Below are positions 2,540 to 45,174 of a DNA stretch of 64,000 nucleotides, piece after piece. The DNA is from Amia ocellicauda (lineage: Eukaryota > Chordata > Actinopteri > Amiiformes > Amiidae): positions 6,609,357 through 6,673,356 of the forward strand of contig NC_089863.1 of assembly GCF_036373705.1 (NCBI RefSeq), written 5' to 3'. The number at the start of each line of letters is the position of its first letter. The first letter of the stretch is position 1. Position numbers and translations under genes: made by a program. The notes under the pieces are model-generated. The model had not been told where the DNA came from. It searched no databases and worked only from the letters and a program-made list of their open reading frames with translations.

Positions 2540-5500
2540 CAATCAATCATCAATCAATCAATCGCAGGGTAGCCACAGAGCGCTTTACAGACTTGTAAAC
2601 ATACAACAAACGTATAGCAAAATAAAAAACATAAATACAATAAAATCAAATATAGACCTGTAAACATTTTACATGATCTAGAATAAAGTGAGTGAATATT
2701 TAAGTAAATAAACCATTTAGGCACGGAGGAGAGAAAAACAAAAAAACTCCTATGGATGGCATGTAGGAGAAAATCAATTTCTGGGGGTCCACAGCTTAGG
2801 GCCTAGGCCTAATGGTTGCCTCCCCTCCAGGCAGTATAGTTATTACAGCAGCAAGGAGATCAGAAAGTTCTTTATCGGTGCTGCTGGCTGTGGTCTTCCC
2901 TCTGGAGGAGGCCTCTCGCTGGCCATTGGGGGTGGAGGGTTTGGACCATCAACAGGCTTTGGGTTGCGATGGCTCGTCAAACCTTGGGTGTGGATGCCCC
3001 GTTGACCATCCGTGGTGAGGTGCTTCTGGGATGGGTTGTGCCTCATCAGACTTCCATGGTGGGGGACGAGGTGCCTCGTTGGACCCTCAGAGGAGGCTGT
3101 TGCTGGAAGACAAGAAGGCAGTCGTGCTCAGATACTCGTCATGCAGTGCAGGACATTTCCAAAGACAGTTGTGCAATTGCATGTCCATGGCACACCGGCG
3201 GCACTATGGGCTAGAAACACAGAGACAAAACAGATGAGTCTTCAGCCGTGATTTAAAGGCTAAGACAGAGGGGGCATCTCTTACATTGGCTGGAAGATCG
3301 TTCCACAGCTTCGGGGCCCTATAACTGAATGCTCTACCACCTGCGGTTTTCTTGTGTATTTTAGGGAGCGCTAAGTAACCGGCTTCCTGTGATCTCAATG
3401 GCCGACCTGGAGTGTATTCCATAAGGAGATCTTTTAGTAGGGAGGTGCCAGCCCCTTTAGTGCTTTAAATGTTAGTAAGAGAAATTTGAAATCTATCCTG
3501 TAGCGCAAGGGCAGCCAGTGAAGAGAAGCCAATACTGGAGTGATGTGTTCATGTTTTTTTGTTTTTGTTAGGATTCTTGCAGCAGCATTTTGGACTGAAG
3601 TGCAGAAATAGCTCTGTTTGTGCTGCCTGACAGAATGGCATTGCAGTAATCCAATCTAGATGTAACAAATGCGTGTATCAATTTCTCAGTGTCCTGTAAT
3701 GAGAGGAATTGTTTTAGTCTAGCAATGTTTCTAAGCTGGAGGAAGGAAGATCTCGACACATTCTGAATGTGTGATTCAAAAGATAGATTATGATCACAGA
3801 TGACACCCAGGTTTCGTGCCATCTCCTTAGGGGAGAAATTAAAGTTATCATTACTCAGTTTTGTTAGTGCATGATGAACAGTTCTTTTTTTGACTTCTGT
3901 TTTGTCAGAATTAAGCATAAGAAAATGTTTTGTCATCCATGTTTTAATCTCAGGCAGACAGCACATTAGTTTTTCTAGGTCTATGGTGTTGTTAGGATTT
4001 ACTGACAGATATAATTGTGTGTCATCTGTGTAACTGTGAAAGTTAATATTATGTTGTCAAATTATATCACCTAAAGGGAGCATGTATAATGAAAAAAGTA
4101 TAGGTCCGAGGACTGAGCCCTGTGGGACTCCGTACTTAACCTCAGTTAAATTTGAGTGGTTCTCGTTAATCTGTACATATTGGAGTCTGTTTGACAGATA
4201 TGTGATTGTGTCAAAAGCCGCACTTAAGTCTAATAAAATAATAACACTAGTGTGCCCTACATCAGAGGACTGAAACACATCATTCAATACTTTTAACTGG
4301 GCTGTTTCTGTACTATGGCTGGAACGGAAGCCTGATTGAAGTTCTTCATAAAGATGATTATCGGTTAAAAAAGCTGGCAGATGGTTTGCAACTACTTTCT
4401 CTAGAACCTTAGAAAGGAAGGGAAGGTTTGAGAGGTCGATAGTGTTTAAGTTGGTTAGGGCCGGCACTGGATTTCTTAAGAAGTGGCTTAATTACAGCTA
4501 TTTTAAATGAATCAGGAACAGATCCTGAGGATAAAGAGACATTAATAATATTGTGTATTCTGTGAATAATTAATGGCAGAGATTGTTTTATCAGTTTAGT
4601 GGGTATAGGGTCTAGTGCGCAGGTTGTTGTTTTCATTTTAGTAATTAAGGAGACCAATTCCTGGTGATTTACTACGTTAAACGAGTCCAAGGTAGTCCGG
4701 GGCTGTGAAGGACTGCATGTGGCTATAGTATCTGTGTATGTTTCCTGTTCTATCTGTTTTCTAATGCTGTTAACTTTGCTATTGAAATGATCCATGAAGT
4801 CACTACAGGTGAAATTGGAGGGATAACCTCTGAAGGCTTCACCTGCTAGTAAGTGTGTTCGTCAAACCATGGCGAGTGTTTTGTTGGTTTAATTTGTTGG
4901 TGTCCTTAATGGGGCTACTGTATCTAAAGCAGTGCTTAGTGTATTGTTGAAATTATTTAATAATTCATCTGCAGATCCTGTTTTGATAAAGCTAGCATTT
5001 GGCAACAGGGTAGTGAATTTATGAATAGTAGTGGGATTTAGGCAACGAATTTCTATATTCCTCTCCTGTGTGACTAATTCTACTCCAGGCAGCTCAAATG
5101 TAATAAGGCAGTGGTCGGAAATTGTCTGGTTTTGGGGTGATATTATTAGGTTGTGAATCTGTACCCCACGGGTTATAACTAGATCTAGTGTGTGATTGTG
5201 ACGATGTGTGGGTCCTGACACATGCTGAGTGAAGCCTACAGACTCCAATAGGGACAAGAAACTAACAGTGAGGGGGTCGTCTTTAATGTCAATATGTATG
5301 TTAAAGTCCCCCAAAATAACAAGTTTATCATAGTGTATGGCTAAGTCAGATAAGAGATTGCTAAATTCAGTCATAAAAAAGGAATAGGGGCCTGGTGGCC
5401 TATAAATAGCTATAAGCTGAAGAGGTGGATTAAGCCTAAATTCTACCTGGTGAATTTCAAAAGATGGGAAGCTGTCTAATGTCTTAGTAGAGGCGTAGGT

Positions 5501-6000
5501 CTGTGTGGTAGATGGTGGCCACCCCCCCCCCCCCCCCACGGCCTGTTGCACGGGCCTTCTGGCAGTAAGAGTAGTCATTAGGGGAGGCTTCTACTAATGG
5601 AATAGTGTCGTCTGGTCTTAACCAGGTCTCAGTCAAGGTGAGCACATTAAGCACATTATTAAGGCTGCTTTGTTAGGTAGTGAGCGGATGTTTAAGACAG
5701 CAAGCTTATACATGGGAGGAGTAATGTGAGCAGGTAATTTCTGTCTTGTAGATTTAACTTCTATTAGATTGTTGAAACGAGGGCCCCGAGAGGAAGGAAT
5801 ACATCCAAGCCTATGACAAATTACTGTTTTAATAGGATAACTATTGATTTTGTTTGTATAAGATTTAATCTCAGGACTATGTACTTTATTGGATGACCCC
5901 AGGCAGGGATCTAGGATCGGGGTCAGGCTGTGCTGGGAGTTACCGGTGCTCTGAGGAGTCACGTTTTTAAACAACTAGCTATATTATCAGATAACATTAG
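2540..6000 (-). mobile_element. L2-clade LINE, near full length, decayed
   Basis: On the minus strand an L2-type ORF2 can be followed in order, broken by frameshifts and stops. The start of the endonuclease is at about 5,974-5,633 (LAVLNIRSLPNKA). The endonuclease body is at 5,578-4,889 (AIYRPPGPYS, VILGDFNIHID, TISDHCLITFEL). Reverse transcriptase is at 4,795-4,057 ([60 protein letters not shown]). The C-terminal part is at 3,966-3,204 (FVTSRLDYCNAILSG, LWNDLPANVRDAPSV). The 3' end at about 2,540-2,580 carries a TGATTGATT-type tail and a GCGCTTTACA motif, both common in fish L2. It is nested in the hAT element. Confidence 0.85.
5521..5537 (+). repeat. Poly-C run inside the L2 endonuclease region
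   Basis: An uninterrupted C run of about 17 bases. It sits in the L2 endonuclease frame near 5,578 and is a likely slippage or assembly-error site. Confidence 0.8.
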
Positions 6001-14864: not shown

Positions 14865-17640
14865 CGAGAGCTGCGCTGCATCTTGGTGACAAAAAGTTAA
14901 GCAGTTGACTAGGGATCTGAAACCAAGAGACTTAGGTGGGAAAATAAATAAATAAATTAATTAACATTTAAAAGCATGTGGCCACTACAGTGTTAGGTTT
15001 GCAGAATGATTGCCTTTCTGGATTATCTCAGGTTGTCGATCTGTGCTGTATTAGGGATATAGAAGAATTGGTCAATCAGCCCATGAGAGAGATGGTGTGC
15101 ACGCCAAAACCTAGGAGAGTTGAGACCTTAGAGCAGGACAGCGTAGAGAACTGCTGGGTTACAGTAGGTCGTAACCGCAGAAAAGGGCGTGCACAACCCC
15201 TAGAGACACCCCAAGAGCTTGAATTGCCCAACAGGTTCCAACTGCTGGAGACCGAGTTGAACAGTGACAGCTCAGAGGGTGATGGGGGGCAGTTGAGCAC
15301 CAGAGCACCATGGTGCCCACTCCCCCCAGAAGAGGGAGGTAGTTATAGTAGGAGACTCAATTCTTAGAGGTGTAGATCACACAGTGTGTTCTAGTGATAA
15401 GGAGACCCGCATGGTATCTTGCCTGCCTGGTGCTCAGGTTGCAGATCTCCCTAAACTAGTAGACGGGCTACTGGCCAAAGCCGGGGGAATCCACTGGTCA
15501 TGGTACACATTGGAACCAATGACATAGGAAAAGGAAGGGCAGAGGTTCTGCAAGACAAATTTAAAGAGTTAGGAACAAAACTAAAGAGCAGAACCTCCAC
15601 GGTAGTTTTCTCCGAAATACTTCCGGTACCACGTGCCAGGCAAGGGAGAGGCAGAGATTAGAAAGTTTAACACGTGGTTGAATGCTTGGTGTAGGGAAGA
15701 GGGGTTTAGGTTTATGGAGCATTGGTCTTTCTTCTGGAATACATGGGACCTGTTCAAACCAGATGGTCTACATCTAAACAGAAGGGGGGCTAATGCACTG
15801 GGAGAGCGTATGTGCAGAGAAATTGAGAATCATTTAAACTAGGGACCAGGGGGGCAGGGAGCTCTGACAATGGCAGATGTTCCTCTAAGGAAAGAAAACA
15901 AAGGGAACCCGCTAGTAGGAAAGTGCTGAAATGTTTGTACCTCAATGCCAGGAGTATAAGGAACAAGATGTTAGACTTGGAAGCCACAGTGCTGGTGGGT
16001 GACTATGATGTTGTAGGTGTGACAGAAACATGGTTTACAGAAAATGATGGGGATGAATACAAGTTGGAAGGATACACACAGTTTAGGAGAGACAGGCAAA
16101 ATCGAAGAGGGGGTGGGGTAGCATTATATGTGAAAAATGACATTGAGGCAGAAGAACTAAAATTAGATCCCAGTAACGGAACAGAATCCTTGTGGGTGAA
16201 ACTTTTGAACAAGAGATCTGGAGGATTAGTGGTAGCAGTGTTACAGGCCACCAAACTCAGATATTCAGAAAGATGCTGCATTGTACAGTGTAATCAGGAC
16301 TGCATGTAGCAAGGATGTGGCTGTTATAATGGGGGATTTCAATTTCCCAAACATAGACTGGGAAAGCCCAGTGGGGACTAGAGAAGCAGAAATAGAAATG
16401 GTTGAGATGGTAAATGACTGCTTTCTAACTCAATTTGTCAAGGAACCAACCAGAGAGAGCGCATGTATTGACTTGATCTTTTCAAATGACCAAGACAGAG
16501 TCAGAGGGACACAAGTTAGAGAACCATTGGTAAACTGTGATCACAACATGGTTAGCTTTGAGGCATTCTTTACAAAAACAAGGACAAAGTCTAAAACAAT
16601 GGTCTACAATTTCAGAAAAGAAAACTTGAAGGTATGAGGCGGCACTTAGAAGAGGTAGACTGGAGCACACTGGATACAGAGTCAGATGAAAATGGATGGG
16701 TATATTTTAAGAATATACTACTCGAGGCTCAGGAGAAATCTGTACCAAAACTTAACAAATTGAGGGCCAAAAAAACACTGGCCAAAATGTTTTAACAGAG
16801 GTATGCAAAAAAATATCAAGAGAAAGAAAATGTTGTAGAGCGCATACAAAAGGGACAGAGACGAAACAAAATGCATAGAATATGTTGAGCTGCAAAGAGA
16901 TCTTAAGAAAGGGATCAGGAAAGCAAAGAGAGAAATAGAAAGAAACATAGCTCTTGGAGCTAAAACTAATGCAAAGAGTTTTTCTCAATACTACAACAGC
17001 AAGAGATCAAGAGATCAACAAATCACCTGGGTCAGATGGGATATTTCCAACAGTACTTAAAGAAATGAGGGAAATTATTTATAGGCCGCTAACTCAAATA
17101 TTCCAAATGACACTTAGAACAGGGGATGTGCCAACTGACTGGAAGACAGCAAATGTCATACCAATCCACAAGAAAGAGGACAAAACTGAGCCAGGAAATT
17201 ACAGACCAATCAGTCTCACCTGCATCACCTGTAAAATGTTGGGAAAAATGATTAGACAGAAAATAGAGGAGCATCTTAATGATAACCATATTCTTGGAGA
17301 TAGTCAACACGGGTTTAGATGAGGCAGATCATGTCTTACTAATTTATTAGAATTTCAGCTGTAGATCAGATGATATGATACACTTAGATTTTCAGAAAGC
17401 TTTTGATAAGGTTCCACACCAAAGACTGATCCTCAAATTGGAAGCTGTAGGCATTCAGGGTAATGTAAGTAGATGGATTATGAACTGGTTGATGTCTAGG
17501 AAACAGAGGGTGTCGATTAGAGGAGTTGCTTCTAACTGGAGTGAGGTTGTTAGTGGAGTTCCACAGGGATCAGTACTAGGGCCTGTGCTTTTTCTAATCT
17601 ATACTACGACCCTTCCAATGATGTCCATATGGGACAGGGA
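14600..17640 (+). mobile_element. CR1-like LINE with esterase-type ORF1, 3' truncated
   Basis: ORF1 (about 14,978-15,840, frameshifted) includes VDLCCIRDIEELVNQPMREM, then a serine-esterase-like region: VVIVGDSILRG-type sequence near 15,340, ETRMVSCLPGAQVADLP, and FNTWLNAWCREEGFRF followed by DLFKPDGLHLNRRGANALGE. ORF2 (from about 15,930) has an endonuclease (LYLNARSIRNKM, DVVGVTETWF, VAVIMGDFNFPNIDWE, CDHNMVSFE) and a reverse transcriptase (KSPGSDGIFPTVL, ENYRPISLT-like at 17,190, [31 protein letters not shown]). It stops just before the catalytic YxDD box, where L1 sequence takes over. Several stops and frameshifts show it is dead. Confidence 0.8.
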
Positions 17641-26032: not shown

Positions 26033-26282
26033 TTATGTCTGTGGGTCCAGCATGATCTCGCATGTGCGGCCCAGCTCTCCCAGTTTGACCCGGGCGTACT
26101 CTGCACGGTTCAGCGCCATCTGGCAGTCCTTCCGGGCCGAGTAGGTGGAGCCCTCGTGGGGCTGACCGGTCGCCACCTGGTGGGAGAGAGAGGGAGTGGC
26201 AGGGTGTGTCAGTGAAGGTCTCTCACAGTCTCTCTCTCGCACACATTCACTACATCTCATACACACACACCCATTACGTGTG

Positions 26283-26333
<51 letters not shown>

Positions 26334-26985
26334 GCGTCTCTCTATCACACACACTCACTACATCTCTCTCTCTCTCTCTCTCCCTGACCTGGGTGAGGTA
26401 GCGGATCTGGCCGCTCAGCTCGTTCTCCACGCGGTTCACCGAGGAGCTGAACTGGGTGAGCTGGCGGTCCAGGAAGCTGGCGTTGTGCTTCTCCTTGGAG
26501 AGCTCCAGCACAATGTTCCCTGCAGGGGGAAGCGGGAGACCCTGTTACAGACCGTCTCTCCCACACCCTCTCACCAGATGTGGGGTGCAGTGTTTGCGTT
26601 GTTCATCCAGTGCTTAGAATGGTGTCGACCCCTTGGTCATGAAGGAGAGCCCCTCCGCAACCCAGCCCCGCCCCCATTTAATCCAATACAGCCTCACATG
26701 TTCACAGCTCCCCACCACACCCCCCCTGGGAGACTGATGAGAAAAGCTCGCCTTGATGAATAGGGAGAGGGAAGGAGGAAAGGGAATGGAAGATATGCTT
26801 GAGATCGGCAGGTGCCACATCAGACAGACAGGTCTTGGGAAAAGCCACTTTGCTACGTTGATGCCGGTGCCTACAGGGGTGATGTCACGCTTTCGGGGGT
26901 TGACGTCACACTGACCTGCGCACTGCAGAATGACGGCGATCTCCTTCTCCACGTCCTCCAGGGCCCGCAGTCTGTCATTGGCCAT
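26033..26985 (-). CDS. MED11: Mediator complex subunit 11 (MED11)
   Basis: Three coding exons on the minus strand, 26,985-26,916, 26,519-26,389 and 26,176-26,033, join in frame to 114 residues; human MED11 has 117. The product is a small helical subunit of the Mediator head module, which pairs with MED22 and links Mediator to general transcription factors during RNA polymerase II initiation. Conserved stretches are [66 protein letters not shown] and the end [20 protein letters not shown]. Splice sites are CAG|GTCAG (both donors), CTGCAG| and CCACCAG|. The ATG at 26,985 lies inside an exon whose acceptor (GTCTCAG) is at 27,017. A non-coding first exon is therefore expected upstream, probably ending at the CAG|GTTTGT donor near 27,652. 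Introns carry (CA)n and (GA)n repeats. Confidence 0.95.
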
Positions 26986-36660: not shown

Positions 36661-36759
36661 TCAGCAGAAGTGGTCGTCCTCATCCTTGTCGTCCTTCATG
36701 CCTTTGAGCCGCAGCCGCGCAAAGTCCTCGAACACGAAGTCGTCGTCTTGACAGAAGTT

Positions 36760-36809
<50 letters not shown>

Positions 36810-38131
36810 GTTAATACAGACACACTGAACACTATACATACCACAGAGGGAGAGATGGGGGAGAGAGACATGAAGACACTCACTTCGTCTCAAACTCTAT
36901 CAGGTTGGTGTCCACTGGCGCGTCTGTTTCTGGGACAGCTGAGGGGAAGAAGACCGAGGGTTAATAAGCAACACATCAACCCGTCAGCAAACCTACCAAA
37001 TCAGCTATACGGTGCATTGGGCATTGTGAGGTCACAGTAAGGTCAGTGTGAGGTCACACTGTGAGGCGACCGTAAGGTCAGTGTGAGGTCACAGTAAGGT
37101 CACAGTGTGGGGGGACAGTGTGAGGTCAGCAGGGGACTTGCTCTTACCTGACTGTGGCCGGGAGGTGGGCTGATCTGACGGCTTGGGGTGCATTAGGACG
37201 AAGGGCAACTCCACAGACACATCACTGAGGGGACAGACAGAGAGGAGGACATGTCAAACAGCAGCAGAGCCTGGACAAACGACACGCTCACACCTTGCCA
37301 GCCCATCTCGGCACCGACACAGAGAGCCCAGGGTGTGAGGACAGGGGGTAGCATATTCTCCCTGACAGGTATTAACGTCAAAGATAGTCCTTAATTATAT
37401 GGTTTCATGGTTTTCGTCGATGACTATATCCTGCAGGGGGGGACGGGGGGGGGGGTCTCTGGCGCTGGAGGCTCATGACGCTTGGGATTGGGGGTCTTTG
37501 TTTCGCTCTGGGAGGGGGTGGCTATTGTTGATACTAGGCTCATTGGATCTAGGGGGGAGGGGGGTCTCATCTACATGAACAGAGGACGTTAACTTGACTT
37601 CACCTCACCAACATCCCACTGAGAAACTGAGAGAGAGAGAGAGAGAGAGAGAAAAAGAGACACCAAAAGGGGAGAGAGAGAGGCAGAGCAAGCCAGAGGA
37701 GCAGAATAAGATAGAGAGACAGACAGGGCAACAGAGACCAGGAGAGAGAGAGAGATGGATAAAACAGGGAGGCAAAAAAAGTAAAAAGACAAATCATAAA
37801 ATTACACAACAAAAAGAAGGACGCAGGCAGCAGGGTGGGGGGACCACAATACACAAAATACATCTCAATATTTCTTGTGTAAGTCTTTCCTTTAATCATT
37901 ACATTTGCAAAACTAACAAATGCCACATGCCAGGCTGTCATGATTTTTGTTTTACCTGACATTATACTAGAGTATATTAAATAATGTGCACAATAACAAA
38001 TACTGGCTGTAAACCTACATTTTGATGAAAAATGCACTCAAGCCTGCAGAATAGACTTCATGAAGTCCACAGAACGCAACACATTACAGCGCATGTGTGT
38101 GATTACTATTACTTGTGTTGTTGTTATCTAT

Positions 38132-38164
<33 letters not shown>

Positions 38165-41100
38165 CTTGTCATAAGAGACAGTATGTGGGGGGTGGGGTGT
38201 TGGAGGGTTTGGGGTTCTTGCAATGGTTGTGGTTTGATGGATAGGAGTACACTGTTTATTGTTTATGGATTTGTGAAATAAAGTTAATTTAAAAACCTAT
38301 AGATAGAAAGATCAATAGATAACACATGCAATAGAGATCACGCAACATATATATAACGTGATATATATAAAATATCGCATAACAACACAAGTAATAGTAA
38401 CCACAAATTATATCCATCTAAATTAGCGGGGGGGTGGGGGTGTGCGATCACGTATTGTCGGGGGTGTTTGCAGATCGGGTTTGTCCAGGGTGAACGAGAG
38501 TGGGGCGGAACTAGTTTCTTTTAGTTATTATTTTGTTTCCCTCACGCATATGTTTGTCCAGGCGGGCCAATTGTGAAACCCTGTATATATATATCAATCC
38601 ATATTCGCTTCTGTTTGTGTGTAATTCAAACATATCATTAAAACTGGCTAACTATTATTTTGTTCATTCGCTTCCATTGCTTTAAAAAAAATCTTAATAT
38701 AGCGAGTGTAACATGTAAGACCGTAATTCCACGAACCCGTCTATAATTGCTTCATTTTTTTTTTAATTCCAAAGAAGTTGCCACAGTCCAAGCCGAGGAG
38801 AAGGATTCCGACTCACACTCAACTTGAATACAAAAGACGGATATTTTCCTTTGATTAATTATTTTATCTAACCATTTCCTATCAAAACACCAAACGCAAT
38901 TAGAGAACACTGTGTTAATAATACAATTGTAAGAGGGCCTGGCCTGGCTCACTTCCTCTCTTACACCCCATTTGCTGACTGCAGTACACCGTAAGGTAGC
39001 AAGGGGGCGAAAGCATACCAATTGCATAAAAACAACATTCCCATTTAAATCACAGCACAATTAATAACTATTATGGATTTACTTTAATACATAAAAATGG
39101 CTCTAGCACCGTCTGTTTGTAAAATAAACATGCAACTTGATAAGCAGTTGCATCTCCTGATTAAGGACCTCAAAACGACACATTTACTAACATCAATACA
39201 AATTATTTGATAGTAACATGCCACGGAAACACATTTGCTCCCTCATCTTCATGCCTTCTCCCGCCTTACTTTAATAAACGTAGATGACGATTGGCCAAAT
39301 TAAAATTGACCAATAAGGGTCTTCTGCAAGTGATTGGCCACAAAGATTGACAAGCATTTCCTGCAAAGTGATTGGCTGCATAAAAAAATAGTTGCTCCTC
39401 CCACAGTCCATGGTTTCCGGGTCTGCAGCTATACATACTTGCATACAAATGACAAAAACTTGAGTCTTGGGATACAGGGATTTTGTAATATAATATAAGT
39501 ATTGAGTATATCGCAAAAACTCGATATATGGCCCAGCAATAGAGTGAGTGAGGAACCAGGGAGACTGGGAGGAGGAAGCACATAGGCACAGCACACAACG
39601 AACCCTTACCCGCCACGCGATACCACCAGCTTGACTTTGACCCGGTAGGACACCAAGATGCCCAGCACTTCCTTGTTGGCCACTTCTTTCACTCTGAAAC
39701 ACAAAGGGATGGTGTGTCAGCGGGTTAATCGATGTACCCCTCCTAATCGGTGCGTTCATCAGTATGTAACTGCCACTCACGTGGTGCTGGAGGCCAGGTT
39801 GGTGTCAACCAGTGCGTCAGTGTCATTGCGTCAGTGCGTCTGTTTCAGTGCGTCAGTGACGTGGTGCTGGAGTCCAGGTTAGTGCTAATCGGTGCGTCAG
39901 CGTGTCAGTGTATCAGTGCGTCAGTGTATCAGTGTCACTCACATGGTGCTGGAGGCCAGGTTGGTGTCTTCGTGCTTCAGCTTGCCGTCCAGCGCCAGGC
40001 CACGCTTCTCCCTGTTGTTACTGAGCATGGGGGTCAGGGTGTACACCTTGCAGAACGTGGAGCTGGGGGACACCTGGTCACTGTGAGGAGGGGGAGAGAG
40101 AGAGAGAAACAGCACTACTGTGTTACTCAGTCCATTCAGCAGGGAGACAGAGAGCGCGAGAGAGAGAGAGAGAGAGAGGATTGCGGACAGAGAGAAACAG
40201 AGAGAAATAGGGTGGGGGATGGGGACAGGGACACAGTATTAAGGGACAGAATACAGGAGTTCCTGTATCAATCAATCAATCAAATTTAATTGCTCGTAAT
40301 TGAAGAACTGCCAGAGGGAGGTCAGCAGCAATGGACGCACTGCAGACGTCATGCCCAGATGGGGTAGTGTTTGTGTTTCGGGAGGGGTGGGGTCCCAGCG
40401 TTCAGGGGACAAGGCGAACGGTATTTTGGGGGGTGTCCGTCGGTTGTGGGGGGAGGGGAAGGGGATGGGGGGGGGGCGTCCCTGTACTCACCGGCTGAAC
40501 AGCGAGCTCACAGACTTGCTGTAGGTGTCGCTGGAGTACAGCACCACGTCTGTCACCTGCAGCACTGAGAGAGAACACGCACTGTGACATCATGGCGGGG
40601 GCAGGGCCAGGACCGGGGCAGAGTGCCATTAGGGGAAGGGCAGGGGTCAGAGGCTTTATGAGAGGGCTGATTGGCTGGGCGGGGCTCAATGGGTGGGGCA
40701 TAGACAGGAAGTGGGCTGAGCGGAGGACTGTAATGTCCTTGTGGGGCAACAGGAAGGAAGGGGCGGAGGGGAGCGTGGTGGAAATCGGGCCGTGTGATTG
40801 GCCGGCAGTGAAATGGACTGTGGGAAATGTAGTTTGTTTTCAGTTGGTTGGTGGATTTGATCCGATTGCTTTCCCTCACTTATTATGGTCTGTACAGGAT
40901 GCTGTCTCAAATTGCTTGGAGACGTGATTGACAATAGAGGAGATAGGGAGGGACTGAAGAGAGTATGGGGGAGAGAGAGAGAGAGAAAGAGAGAAAGATG
41001 GAGGGATGGAAGGAGAGAGAGGAGAGATGGGTACTCACTCTGCCTCGACCTGCGCCACAGGACACTTGTACTGGGCAGTGCTAAAGAGACAGATATCAGC

Positions 41101-44100
41101 ATACTGCCGCACTGTGAGGAGAGAGAAGGGCAGGGGTTACACAAAGCACAACACACACTCACACACACACATACTATGGCTCTGAGGATGCCGCGTTGTA
41201 GGCGGCCACAGTCCTGACTGCCAGGAATGGGATCCAGGGAGCTCCCAGCAGTCTGTGAACATGCACTGGCCAGCAGACAGGACGTGCGTGTCTGTCTGTT
41301 GGTCAGTGTGCGTCTCTCTCTCTCTCTCTCTCTCGGTGTCTGTATGCCATAGTTGGGAGACAGAGGAAAAAGGAGGGAGGGAGCGAGGGAAGGGGATCTG
41401 AATCCCAGCCACTGATTCTGGAGTACCTCCCTCTCTCTAACTCACCAGAGATCTTTATTTTCTTGACAGTCTTGGTGGAGTTGTTGGTGACGTGGACGTT
41501 GACGCTGATTGGCTCTCCGTGGTAATACAGCTGGAGGGAGAGAGAATAAAACAAAAATGGTGAGAATCAGATAGCAGAAGACCGTTTTTTGACAGGGACG
41601 TATGTGTGTGTGTGCGTGCACGTGTGTGTGGGTGCACAAGTACCTCCTTGTCCAGAGATGCCTCCAGGTGCAGGGACCGGTCCGACATCAGGAAGCTGCG
41701 CGTCGTCTCCACCATGGGCTGTGGCCCGGGTTTCTCTGGTGCGTACTGGACCTTCCTGATCACCAGCCTCACGGAGTTCCTGCAGCACAGAGATGCCGTC
41801 ACACACACACACACACTCTCGGAGACTATGGTACACGTACACGTACACGTTGGTGCCACTATCATTATAAGGACTCTCCATAGACATAATGACTTTTATA
41901 TTGTACAAACTATAGATTCTATCCCCTAACCCTAACCCCCATAAAAAACTTTCTGCATTTTTACATTTTCAAAAAAACATCATTTAGTATGTTTTTTAAG
42001 CATTTTGAATTATGGGGACATTGGCAATGTCCTCATAAACCACCATTTTTGCATAATAACAGTTTGTAACCTAAAAAACCTCGTAAACCACATAAACCAA
42101 CCCACACACACACACACAAACACACAGTCACCTGCTGACCCTGAACTACAGACACATGCAGAGACTAATACACTGTCGCTGATATTGGCACACAAAAGGT
42201 TAGAGAGACAGAGAGACTGACCTTTTGTGAATCTTCTCTTCAACCGATTTGGCACAGAATGCTCTGATCTCGAAATCCACCCCACACGCCTGCGGACAGA
42301 CGGACGGACGGACGGACAGACATTTTAATGGGGAAGTTGACGGCTTGATTTACCCGTGCATCTATAGGCGTCTTATGTACAGCGCCCTGTGTGTGAGAGG
42401 TCTGGCTGTGTGCGACTCTGCAAGTAACCATCAGTGCTCTTCATTTCATCTCTCCTTACACTCTCTCCAGAACCCTCCGCTCCTCCTGCGCCAGAAGACT
42501 GACTTTGCCTCCTCTCCACTTCAGTTCCTGACCACCTTCAGGCGATTACTCAACACACGCCTGTTCAGACTGTACCTGTGATACAGCGGCCTGATCCCCT
42601 GTGTGTGTGTGTGTGTGTGTGAGAGTGAGGCTCTGTCCCTGTTTTGAGCATGTGTGAACATGCGTGTGCGACTGTGCTTGGCTGTTACGCCAGTACCTTG
42701 CCAGTGTCCTCGGGGCCGGGCTGCAGGGTGACGGAGCAGGGCAGGTTCTGAGGGATCTGCGGAGAGAAATACACACACATATCAGAGCTGATGTCACTGG
42801 ACTGCTGTGTATTCTCTCACAGTGAGGGGGCGGGGGGGCGTGCTGGTCCAGAGTGATAGTACCAGTGTAGAACATTTTACCAGGTGTTACAGTGTCAGTG
42901 TGTCACAGTATTGCAGTACCAGTGTGTCAGTATTACAGTATCAGTGTGTCATAGTGTTAGAGTATCAGTGTGTCACACGTGTGCTCTCACAGTGAAGTAG
43001 AAGGGGTGGGTGTGCTGGCCCAGTATTAGTATCAGTGTGTCTGTGTGTCGCGTGTGTGCTCTCACAGTGAAGTAGAAGAGGTGGTCGTGCAGACCCTGTA
43101 TTACAATGTCAGTGTGTCAGCGTCACAGTATCAGTGTGTCACGCATGTGCTCTCACAGTGAAGTTGAAGAGGTGGGCGTGCTGGCCCAGTTTTACAGTGT
43201 CCGCGTGTCACGCGTGTGCTCTTACAGTGAAGTAGAAGGGGTGGGCGTGCTGCCCCAGCTTCTTTAGGAGCCGCTCCTGCAGGCGGCTGAGGGGCCGGCG
43301 CTCCTCCGGCAGAGCGGGGAAGGCCTGGAAGGTGGAGATGTACAGGTCCTTCCTGAAGGACAGGCCCAGCACATCCAGGTCCTCCCGGCCATAGCGGAAC
43401 GCACACGTCAGGGTCACAAACACTGGGGTGGGGAGAGAGAGGGAGAGACTGGTTATGGGACTATGGGAATGAAAGGAAGGAGAGGCAGAGTTAAAGAAAG
43501 AGAAATAGGATAGGAAAGGGGGACACTGGGAGATGGAGGAAGAGAGAGGGGAGCAAGGGAGAGGGTATGACGGAGTGAAAGAAAGGTGTTTTAAGAGAGA
43601 GGGGTGAGAGATGAAGGAGGGATGGGGGGATGTGAGGAACACAGAAAGAAGGGAGCAAAGGTGAGCTAAGGTCTTTTTACCTTTCCGGTCTTTCAGGTAC
43701 TCTGGGTCAATCAGGAGCACTCCGTCTGCAGGGGGAGAGAGAGAGAGCAGTTTTAGTTTCTGTGCGTTGTTTAACACCGTGGACTGAATGCAACTGAACA
43801 GACCGAGAGAAAGAGAGACACGCGACAATCAACACCATCACGCTTGGTTCCGTGCTCGTCGTGCGGTTACCGGTCACAGAGGGAGTGTGCGAGAGAGTGT
43901 CAGTGTGTGTGAGAGTAGGTGTTACAGTCTCTCTCGTATTAAAAACAGCACAGATCCCAGCGAGCCCAGTCTCCCTCGGGGGGGGGACCGAAACCATAGC
44001 AGCAGCCACTCCCGCGTCCCCTCCACCACAGAGGACCTGGGGCCAGATCCAAGAGGCTCGAAAACAACAACAACAACTGTGTAGGCAACCCACAGGAGTA

Positions 44101-45174
44101 GCATTCCCCCTGAACAGGAGGTGGTGGGGGACGGGAGCAGAGCGCAGTTCGATCTCTGACTCCTCTCCTTTTAAACCTCTCAGTCAGTGCGTCCGTGTAT
44201 CATTCCACCACTCAGTGTTTCAGTGCATCCGTGTATCAGTCCGTCACTCAGTGTGTCAGTGCGTCCCTGTATCAGTCTGTCACCCAGTGTGTCCGTGTAT
44301 CAGTCCGTCACCCCTGACCCTCATCGGCACGGACACTCACCTACTGGGTCCACATGGTCCAGATGGTCAACAAAGTCTCTCTTCCCCAGATACACTGTGA
44401 GCTGCACAACGAGAGAGAGAAGAGGGAGAGGTTATCAGTTATCAGGCAAGAAGTCTGTCAAAGAAACAACCCCTGATACAGCTTTCTCTCCCTCTCCCTC
44501 CCTCTCTCCCTCTCAGACTGACCCCGAGGCGCTCCACTCCCTTCTTGAAGACTCTTTTCCCTGGAGGGGGGGGCAGTTCACAGAACACATCTTCCACACT
44601 AACTGCCCCCTCCATCACCGACACACAGAGAGAGGGAGAGAGATTTGACAAAGAGAGGGGGAGACTAGCGAGAGAGGACAAGAGAGAGAGAGAGAGAAAG
44701 AGGATGGACTGAAGAAAAAGCAAAGGTAGTGGCAGGAGGTAAAGAGAGGGTTGGGGATAGAGAGAGAAAACAAGAACAAACGGAACGAGGGAGAAAAAAG
44801 AAGCGGGGAGGACGAGAGAAATGGTATGGCGTTTGGGGAGACTAAATCAGGCAAGGAACAGAGAGATGCTGAGAGAAAGAGGACAAGAGGACAAGGAGGA
44901 AGATACTGACATAAGGGTGAGAGCAAGAGAGAGAAACGGAGGGAGAGAAGAGTGGCTGTGGCAGGCTGCTGTATCCAGTCGCAGGAGAAAGGGAAGGAGG
45001 AAGGAAGGGAAGGAGCGAGACAGGGCCCTGGAGGAGGTGTAGTCAGTCCATGGGGACACAGGGGTGTCTGCGTTAACCGTTTCGGCACAGTCAGAGAGCG
45101 ACACAATTAATGAAAAGACAAAAGAAAGTAAAAATTCTTCTACCTTGCAGTTGGGGCTGGACTTCTTGAACACT
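36661..45174 (-). CDS. ARRB2: Beta-arrestin 2, exons 2 to the last
   Basis: Minus-strand exons: 45,174-45,144; 44,401-44,341; 43,725-43,681; 43,422-43,226; 42,756-42,697; 42,289-42,222; 41,779-41,644; 41,530-41,446; then 41,111-41,039 or 40,564-40,492; 40,080-39,943; 39,693-39,610; 37,224-37,148; 36,938-36,884; 36,760-36,661. With the missing 23-nt first coding exon the product is 410 residues (human 409). It desensitises and internalises phosphorylated GPCRs and scaffolds signalling. Visible landmarks are [10 protein letters not shown], the finger loop [11 protein letters not shown], polar-core Arg in VRLVIRKVQ, Asp residues in [18 protein letters not shown], clathrin box LIEFE and AP2 motif [14 protein letters not shown]. 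The tail [11 protein letters not shown] and the LRLKGMKDD block favour ARRB2 over ARRB1. The optional LLGDLASS insert of ARRB1 is absent. Confidence 0.95.
36762..36807. repeat. (GA)n microsatellite at the last ARRB2 acceptor
   Basis: About 23 GA units. On the minus strand this (TC)n is the polypyrimidine tract of the final ARRB2 exon. Confidence 0.9.
37029..37128 (+). promoter_or_regulatory. Array of AGGTCA half-sites with 5-bp spacing
   Basis: Seven exact AGGTCA hexamers plus one AGGCGA lie at 37,029, 37,040, 37,051, 37,064 (AGGCGA), 37,075, 37,086, 37,097 and 37,123. Five adjacent pairs are separated by exactly 5 bp (CAGTA, GTGTG or CCGTA), the DR5 layout bound by retinoic-acid receptor/RXR dimers. 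It lies in an ARRB2 intron. It may be a chance minisatellite. Confidence 0.5.
37225..39609 (-). other. ARRB2 intron with simple repeats
   Basis: A 2.4-kb intron with (GA)n at 37,630-37,651, (TA)n at 38,142-38,163 and AT-rich DNA. No further exon was recognised. The ARRB1-type LLGDLASS alternative exon would be expected here if present; I did not see it. Confidence 0.5.
39771..39890 (-). repeat. Duplicated exon end plus splice donor (ARRB2)
   Basis: The last ~25 bases of the 40,080-39,943 exon with its donor (AACCTGGCCTCCAGCACCAT|GTGAGTG) recur downstream in the intron. A near-perfect copy lies at about 39,774-39,805 (ending AGCACCAC|GTGAGTGG) and a poorer one at about 39,853-39,876. They are embedded in CAGTGCGTCAGTG repeats. 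Confidence 0.75.
40492..40564 (-). CDS. ARRB2: ARRB2 alternative exon B (visual-arrestin-like form)
   Basis: A second 73-nt exon 474 nt downstream, also phase 1 in and phase 2 out, between acceptor TCTCTCAG and donor GTGAGT. It encodes [20 protein letters not shown] then SLFS. It aligns without gaps to exon A (about 7 of 25 residues identical) but looks more like rod/cone arrestin (Q(V/I)T(D/N)VVLYS.D.Y.K.V). It joins cleanly to [12 protein letters not shown]. Including both exons adds 146 nt and breaks the frame, so I infer mutually exclusive use. Confidence 0.8.
41039..41111 (-). CDS. ARRB2: ARRB2 alternative exon A (canonical beta-arrestin form)
   Basis: A 73-nt exon, phase 1 in and phase 2 out, between acceptor CTCACAG and donor GTGAGT. 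It encodes [20 protein letters not shown] then QVEA, equivalent to human residues 236-260. It contains Arg237 and Lys251, which with Lys233 form the known phosphoinositide/IP6-binding patch of beta-arrestin 2. Confidence 0.93.
42811..43259 (-). repeat. Minisatellite built from an ARRB2 exon end and its donor
   Basis: The end of the 43,422-43,226 exon (CTGGGGCAGCACGCCCACCC CTTCTACTTCACT|GTAAGAGC on the minus strand) is repeated in the following intron at about 43,190-43,146, 43,098-43,053, 43,023-42,981 and, decayed, 42,850-42,811. The copies still read LGQH(A/T)H(P/L)F(Y/N)FT and carry GTGAGAGC donors. Between them are CAGTGTGTCA repeats. Confidence 0.8.
42875..42977. repeat. ~30-bp minisatellite, CAGTGTGTCA(C/T)AGT(A/G)TT type
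   Basis: Three to four imperfect units in the ARRB2 intron next to the exon-end copies. Confidence 0.6.
44178..44315. repeat. ~36-bp minisatellite in an ARRB2 intron
   Basis: Four imperfect units of the type CAGTGCGTCCGTGTATCAGT followed by CCGTCACT. Confidence 0.65.

Follow-up and report, generated by a model that had tools for sequence, protein, structure and literature searches.

A visual-arrestin-like version of exon 10 in the β-arrestin-2 gene of Amia ocellicauda: a candidate mutually exclusive exon pair

The β-arrestins serve hundreds of receptors, and the manner in which one of them can be made selective is an open question of design as well as of physiology. The locus described in this report asks whether a choice between two exons could provide such selectivity. 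The DNA analysed is a stretch of 64,000 nucleotides (nt) of Amia ocellicauda (NC_089863.1, positions 6,609,357-6,673,356; GCF_036373705.1), hereafter called the window. It contains a gene of β-arrestin-2 (ARRB2) in which two versions of exon 10, named 10A and 10B or simply A and B, stand one behind the other. An original prediction, made from the letters of this DNA, had proposed that the two exons exclude one another and that the second one resembles visual arrestins. With a probability of about 0.7, the best explanation is that they form a true mutually exclusive pair giving rise to a hybrid protein, in which a visual-type receptor reader would be mounted on the endocytic body of a β-arrestin. 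If this is true, splicing may change the receptors or the membrane lipids recognised by β-arrestin-2.

Two exons for one segment

The exon pair lies between two constant exons, as follows:

41446..41530, minus strand: constant exon 9, the upstream partner of the pair, which contains Lys233
41039..41111, minus strand: exon 10A of 73 nt, starting in phase 1 and ending in phase 2, the usual β-arrestin form of ARRB2 residues 236-260
40492..40564, minus strand: exon 10B, likewise of 73 nt and starting in phase 1 and ending in phase 2, the visual-arrestin-like alternative for the same residues 236-260
39943..40080, minus strand: constant exon 11, the downstream partner of the pair, with TGA as its first three bases

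Both 10A and 10B are flanked by GT..AG splice sites, and the coordinates, strand, lengths, phases and junctions (41446, 41111, 40564 and 40080) given by the original prediction were all recovered unchanged. Either exon alone keeps the frame open to the normal stop. The two exons together (146 nt) place the TGA of exon 11 in frame and the skipping of both leads to an early stop as well, which bears out the mutually exclusive layout proposed for ARRB2. The reading frame itself should be the visible safeguard of an exclusive choice, with the products of double or no inclusion predicted to decay. The two exons are identical at 29 of 73 bases and at 7 of 25 residues; if they are tandem duplicates, the duplication is therefore old. 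Within the arrestin family, B plainly corresponds to this exon position.

The splice sites of both exons look usable. The donor of B scores 10.3 bits against 6.7 for A, according to a rough matrix, and the acceptors hold 15 pyrimidines out of 16 for A and 11 out of 16 for B, so that A combines the richer acceptor with the weaker donor and B the opposite. The intron separating A from B measures 474 nt, and steric exclusion across this distance is unlikely. Exclusion by a distant branch point is likewise unlikely, and was discarded as unsupported, because an AG is located 19 nt ahead of the first base of exon B. Simple repeats were observed in these introns. A GA repeat upstream of A (41313-41334) is complementary to CU repeats of the A-B intron (40971-40992, 95% over 22 nt) and to CU repeats of the intron between B and exon 11 (40157-40178, stretches of 19-22 nt at 100%). 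If these tracts paired in the RNA, either A or the two exons as a unit could be looped out; the tracts being simple repeats, RNA pairing is not claimed as a regulator. The Rbfox-type motif TGCATG occurs once upstream of A and is absent from the other two introns, which is too little to use.

Is exon B a genuine arrestin exon? The window was scanned in six frames using 25-residue exon peptides as queries, and B was the top-scoring place for the four visual-arrestin exons used (4/4, scores 48-60). For two of these queries, sturgeon ARR3 and cow SAG, 20 windows simulated with a first-order Markov model served as controls and gave maxima with means of 26.4 and 25.7 and a highest value of 35, on which basis a chance open frame was rejected. 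A retrocopy, regarded by the original prediction as a possible refutation, is unsupported, as are an assembly error or a stray ARR3 fragment: exons 2-15 of one ARRB2 stand in order, both versions of exon 10 lie between constant exons, and, short duplicates of the exon 5 tail aside, no second arrestin copy was seen in the window. It is very likely that the pair is real and has been conserved in ray-finned fishes.

Exon B in other fishes and its likeness to visual arrestins

The occurrence of exon B outside Amia was investigated with three protein searches, which listed 9 of 9, 120 of 162 (the SAG search) and 120 of 1138 records and, given 7 overlapping ones, 242 in all. The 120 records of the SAG search being excluded, the other 122 were classified as 111 with A, 9 with B, 1 with both and 1 unclassified. 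Inspection by eye corrected three of these calls: one of the nine B records is a sturgeon ARR3, the unclassified record, from Esox, has B, and a Coregonus record called A also has B. The search of related species suggested by the original prediction was thus rewarded, exon B being present, among the matches listed, in at least 11 ARRB2 protein records from eight other ray-finned genera (Danio, Cyprinus, Sinocyclocheilus, Pygocentrus, Denticeps, Albula, Esox and Coregonus, one species each) and annotated as a separate isoform. These records belong to Elopomorpha, Otomorpha and the pike and whitefish group, and nine of the 11 are annotated with B alone. In carp, Sinocyclocheilus and Pygocentrus, exactly 24 residues are swapped here between the annotated A protein and the annotated B protein; these proteins also vary at alternative ends, and their origin from the same gene is inferred from their identity elsewhere. 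The 120 records listed out of 1138 included no ARRB2 with a B exon from shark, coelacanth, reedfish, gar or tetrapods. Clustering at 90% can hide isoforms, and those with A and those with B are about 4% apart, so that this absence means little.

When compared with B of the window, the exon of Danio, Cyprinus and Pygocentrus is identical at 20 of 25 residues, that of Albula and Denticeps at 17 of 23, that of Esox at 16 of 25 and that of Coregonus at 15 of 25. Window A is identical at 23-25 of 25 residues to the A exons of nine other vertebrate ARRB2 rows, from shark to opossum, and at 22 of 25 to the human ARRB1 exon. A further record met in these searches (Acipenser sinensis P0130, named 'UNVERIFIED_CONTAM: hypothetical protein') reads as a model of ARR3, the cone arrestin, with repeated pieces, and the query assembled from it has salamander cone arrestin as its best PDB match.

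The resemblance of exon B to visual arrestins, already noticed in the original prediction, was confirmed in an exon alignment, where B of the window shares 13-15 of 25 residues with seven SAG and ARR3 rows against 6-8 of 25 with 11 β-arrestin A rows. Window A shares 7-11 of 25 with the visual rows. Fixed differences, at which the seven visual rows share one residue and the 11 A rows another, number four (242, 243, 248 and 252), and all eight B rows carry the visual residue at each of them (242V, 243V, 248D and 252K). Residue 239 is also Val in 8/8 B rows. Three residues of window B, Leu237, Thr249 and Arg260, occur at their positions in neither group; among the B rows as a whole, 237 is Leu or Gln, with one gap, 249 is Thr in 8/8 and 260 is Arg in 6/8.

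A tree of 26 of the 27 rows (8 B, 4 SAG, 3 ARR3 and 11 A; the fly row was dropped) was built from these 25 columns. The B rows are those of the window and of seven species, Sinocyclocheilus, with the same B letters as carp, being omitted; the SAG rows are four of the 120 listed, one of the ARR3 rows came from a PDB alignment, and the A rows were chosen for spread. Albula was padded with two gaps and Denticeps was given a hand-placed two-residue gap. When an invertebrate outgroup was sought in the PDB at a strict cut-off, with a fly arrestin as query, the 16 sequences listed were β-arrestins without exception. In the resulting unrooted tree, A is split from B and the visual exons with a support of 100/100, and B adjoins ARR3 inside the visual rows (92/74). 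Constraining B to join A nevertheless costs only 3.0 log units and is not rejected (approximately unbiased test, p_AU 0.193). A shared ancestry of B with the visual exons is favoured by this alignment, but not proven.

Receptor choice, the lipid site and the rest of the protein

The PDB alignment equates exon 10, that is ARRB2 236-260, with arrestin-2 235-259. According to excerpts of PMC11173308, the C-domain element of receptor preference comprises residues 237-268 of arrestin-1 and 233-262 of arrestin-2, and its exchange together with an N-domain element reversed receptor specificity. The reading of B as a determinant of receptor choice is strengthened, because the exon nearly coincides with this mapped element. 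The exon also includes the position of the C-loop, Tyr251 of arrestin-1 or Phe245 of arrestin-3, which contacts rhodopsin (PMC6420155, in part); this residue is Tyr in 4/8 B rows, among them the window, and His in the other 4/8.

The same exon bears on the binding of lipids. Lys233, Arg237 and Lys251 bind phosphoinositides and inositol hexakisphosphate (IP6) (excerpt of PMC8733679), the mutations K233Q/R237Q/K251Q weaken the change induced by the phosphatidylinositol bis- and trisphosphates PIP2 and PIP3 (excerpt of PMC11615292), and a five-site mutant including these three residues forms no IP6 trimers and is attenuated in JNK3 activation (excerpt of PMC5681653). As the original prediction had it, Arg237 and Lys251 are present in A and replaced by Leu and Ser in B of the window; Lys233 is encoded upstream, in constant exon 9. 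Window B has a lysine one residue further on, at 252, like the visual rows, and this shifted lysine should, in a strand, face the other side. Six of the eight B rows have Ser at 251, one has Asn and that of Esox has Lys. B forms thus commonly, though not universally, lose the lipid site. Visual arrestins lack the IP6 site or keep it loosely, and the visual-type A253D, which corresponds to ARRB2 position 248, is a change from ARR0 (PMC5501109).

Taken together, these observations suggest the following mechanism. Splicing would pick one exon of the pair, and the frameshift caused by double or no inclusion would lead to removal of the RNA by nonsense-mediated decay. The choice of 10A would yield ordinary β-arrestin-2. 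The choice of 10B would swap the receptor-discriminating strand-loop-strand of the C-domain for a version of the visual-arrestin type and, in Amia, eliminate two of the three phosphoinositide/IP6 residues, and the finger loop, the phosphate sensor and the clathrin/AP-2 tail would remain those of a β-arrestin. Isoform B is predicted to have a narrower or shifted receptor preference, and its membrane recruitment by lipids and IP6, its trimerisation and its scaffolding of JNK3 would be weaker. By its position, the exon is well placed for the proposed functional switch.

Several points weigh against this explanation. The visual likeness of B is incomplete, because residue 237 is Leu or Gln whereas the visual rows are acidic there, and so is its departure from the lipid site, because B of Esox retains Lys251. 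F245A alone had little effect (PMC6420155, in part), and the triple lipid-site mutant was near-normal in its response to a receptor phosphopeptide (excerpt of PMC11615292). Both structure predictions were poor, with a mean predicted local distance difference test score (pLDDT) of 43.6 and 41.1 from 14 and 15 rows. The B isoforms of other fishes are database models only; the predicted proteins of Albula and Coregonus each contain both exons (in the order A then B, as in the window), two records (P0007 and P0009) have B following a stretch other than exon 9, and B of Denticeps is two residues shorter. Finally, conservation is lower in B than in A and almost absent from the last six residues of B.

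The rest of the gene is that of an ordinary β-arrestin. From 45174 down to 36661, the minus strand carries fourteen coding exon positions of this single arrestin gene, numbered 2-15; the first seven codons, which belong to exon 1, were not found in the window. In addition to exons 9-11, the gene model comprises:

45144..45174, minus strand: constant exon 2, which starts at residue 8 and contains Ser13 and Cys17
44341..44401, minus strand: constant exon 3
43681..43725, minus strand: constant exon 4
43226..43422, minus strand: constant exon 5, unsplit
42697..42756, minus strand: constant exon 6
42222..42289, minus strand: constant exon 7
41644..41779, minus strand: constant exon 8
39610..39693, minus strand: constant exon 12
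37148..37224, minus strand: constant exon 13
36884..36938, minus strand: constant exon 14, which encodes LIEFE
36661..36760, minus strand: last coding exon 15, the tail with FVFEDFAR

We take LIEFE to be a clathrin-box-type motif and the tail of exon 15 to be of the AP-2-binding type. The finger loop and this clathrin/AP-2 tail are encoded by constant exons in the gene model, and presumably the phosphate sensor is as well.

The gene is the orthologue of ARRB2. In a tree from which exon 10 was excluded (18 ARRB2 rows including the window, one ARRB1 and four visual arrestins), it forms a single group with the 17 other ARRB2 rows (100/99), and stands beside gar and reedfish, outside the 11 teleost rows (83/76). 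Its constant part is 96.9% identical to that of Albula, 96.3% to that of the characin Salminus, 95.1% to that of gar and 93.6% to that of tarpon. These values do not by themselves place the gene; only the tree hints, weakly, at a fish outside the teleosts. The Arrestin_N and Arrestin_C profiles match isoforms A and B, all over the cut-off, with an Arrestin_C score of 77.2 bits for A against 73.9 for B. The protein as a whole does not belong with the visual arrestins: only exon B is visual-like, and the LIEFE and FVFEDFAR tail is retained. Ser13 and Cys17, both encoded by exon 2, are strictly conserved in ARRB2 except in lamprey and in pufferfish ARRB2b (PMC5501109). Downstream of ARRB2 and on the same strand, three stretches resembling MED11 (26045-26985, minus strand) were detected with human MED11 as query, and a Pfam scan of one 62-residue piece gave no match. 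In the human genome, MED11 is a same-strand neighbour of ARRB2, and this neighbourhood appears to be kept in Amia.

Three other features of the window deserve mention. Exon 5, reported as split in ARRB2 of Euteleosteomorpha (PMC5501109, in part), has a stretch spanning its 3' end and its 5' splice site in four copies (42946-43263, minus strand, 78-86% to the reference), namely the genuine one and three in tandem within the following intron, which are possible decoy or alternative donors. Open frames at 3571-5590 (minus strand) and 15827-17319 (plus strand) resemble by eye reverse-transcriptase/endonuclease pieces of retroelements. An Rfam scan of the whole window gave 0 matches.

Origin of exon B and comparison with known systems

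How did a β-arrestin gene come to hold such an exon? An ancestral pair is tentatively put forward, at somewhat less than an even chance, and is compatible with the hybrid proposed above: the arrestin gene that preceded the two vertebrate genome duplications would have had both A and B, after which visual arrestins retained B alone and ARRB1 A alone, neither exon being lost from ray-finned ARRB2. All eight B rows share 239V and the four fixed residues of visual type, which is in line with this origin, as are the position of B among the visual rows, beside ARR3, and the changed states shared by B and visual arrestins (Asp at 248 as opposed to ARR0, and an altered IP6 site; PMC5501109). B occurs in records of Elopomorpha, of Otomorpha and of pike and whitefish, and the 11 teleost rows do not include the window gene in their group, so that the exon may be older than the genome duplication of teleosts. 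The exon tree tempers this view, as it lacks an ARR0 root and its 25 columns do not reject B with A; the listed shark, coelacanth, reedfish, gar and tetrapod records of ARRB2 moreover show no B. More doubtful is the further idea that alternative splicing paved the way for the division of arrestins into visual and non-visual ones: the single gene of pre-vertebrate times would have produced two isoforms through a choice between a β-type and a visual-type exon for reading receptors, and ray-finned ARRB2 would be a living relic that continues to make both and uses B for opsin-like or otherwise selected receptors.

Two later origins are each considered unlikely. Exon B could have been acquired by an early ray-finned fish from one of its visual arrestin genes, probably ARR3, through ectopic exchange in the form of gene conversion or exon capture. 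This would agree with the absence of B outside ray-finned fishes among the matches listed, and with sturgeon ARR3 being, at 15 of 25 residues, the closest exon beyond the B rows among those compared; cow SAG is however almost as close (14 of 25), window B differs from all seven visual rows at 237, 249 and 260, and no further ARR3-like sequence was seen beside B with an ARR3 query restricted to exon 10. Tandem duplication of A within ray-finned ARRB2, with B converging on visual residues under selection for a narrower receptor choice, would explain two exons of the same length and phase, in this order and 474 nt apart, and B grouped with A is the very tree that p_AU 0.193 does not reject. Convergence would nevertheless have to reach 4/4 fixed positions as well as 239V, beside an A exon nearly unchanged from shark to opossum and identical to B at just 29 of 73 bases. 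The hybrid explanation itself would be contradicted if B were a decaying or regulatory exon, yielding frameshifted RNA that tunes the level of ARRB2 and encoding an irrelevant peptide. The immediate stop that follows inclusion of A and B, the poor conservation of the last six residues and the likeness of only 15-17 residues in 4/7 of the other species compared would suit such an exon. This reading is nonetheless improbable, since eight species preserve the open frame together with most of residues 236-254 and proteins with B only are annotated; a poison exon would need no such constraint.

The original prediction knew of no description of such a pair for ARRB2. No published description of it was found in the titles and abstract openings of the matches listed, and the main text of a re-annotation of deuterostome arrestins (PMC5501109) contains none of the terms 'mutually exclusive', 'exon duplication' and 'duplicated exon' and refers to isoforms in its supplement. 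To this extent the claim stands; it does not extend to sequence databases, in which isoform X2 of zebrafish arrb2b (XP_009301315.1), as a database model, already carries B. Exon B is therefore annotated in places, yet undescribed as far as seen.

The exon pair offers a concrete way to ask whether splice isoforms foreshadowed the split of visual and non-visual arrestin genes. The mutually exclusive exons IIIb and IIIc of FGFR2 are a known counterpart: they too are alternatives for one segment of a signalling protein, used one per transcript, and their choice alters partner specificity. FGFR2 is however a receptor read from outside, whereas ARRB2 would have its switch inside the cell, in a protein that partners many receptors, and one of its alternatives resembles the version of a paralogous gene. 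Exons 4a and 4b of OGDH (PMC7969005, in part) are another vertebrate pair that is mutually exclusive and alters a regulatory property. Distant branch points enforce the exclusion there; in ARRB2, with an AG 19 nt before B and an intron of 474 nt, disruption of the frame is the visible safeguard. Further parallels, zebrafish arrb2b X2 and the ARRB2 of carp, Sinocyclocheilus and Pygocentrus, have the same exon alternative and differ in being known as database models only, of which that of zebrafish allows direct testing. Chimeras of arrestin-1 and arrestin-2 (Vishnivetskiy 2004, as cited in excerpts of PMC11173308) exchanged nearly the same stretch of the C-domain between a visual and a non-visual arrestin. 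The laboratory swap included an N-domain element (arrestin-1 49-90), whereas the exon of ARRB2 would switch the C-domain part only, by splicing, and its B form is related to a visual exon without being identical to one. The natural switch would thus exchange nearly the same C-domain stretch as the swaps made in the laboratory for receptor preference.

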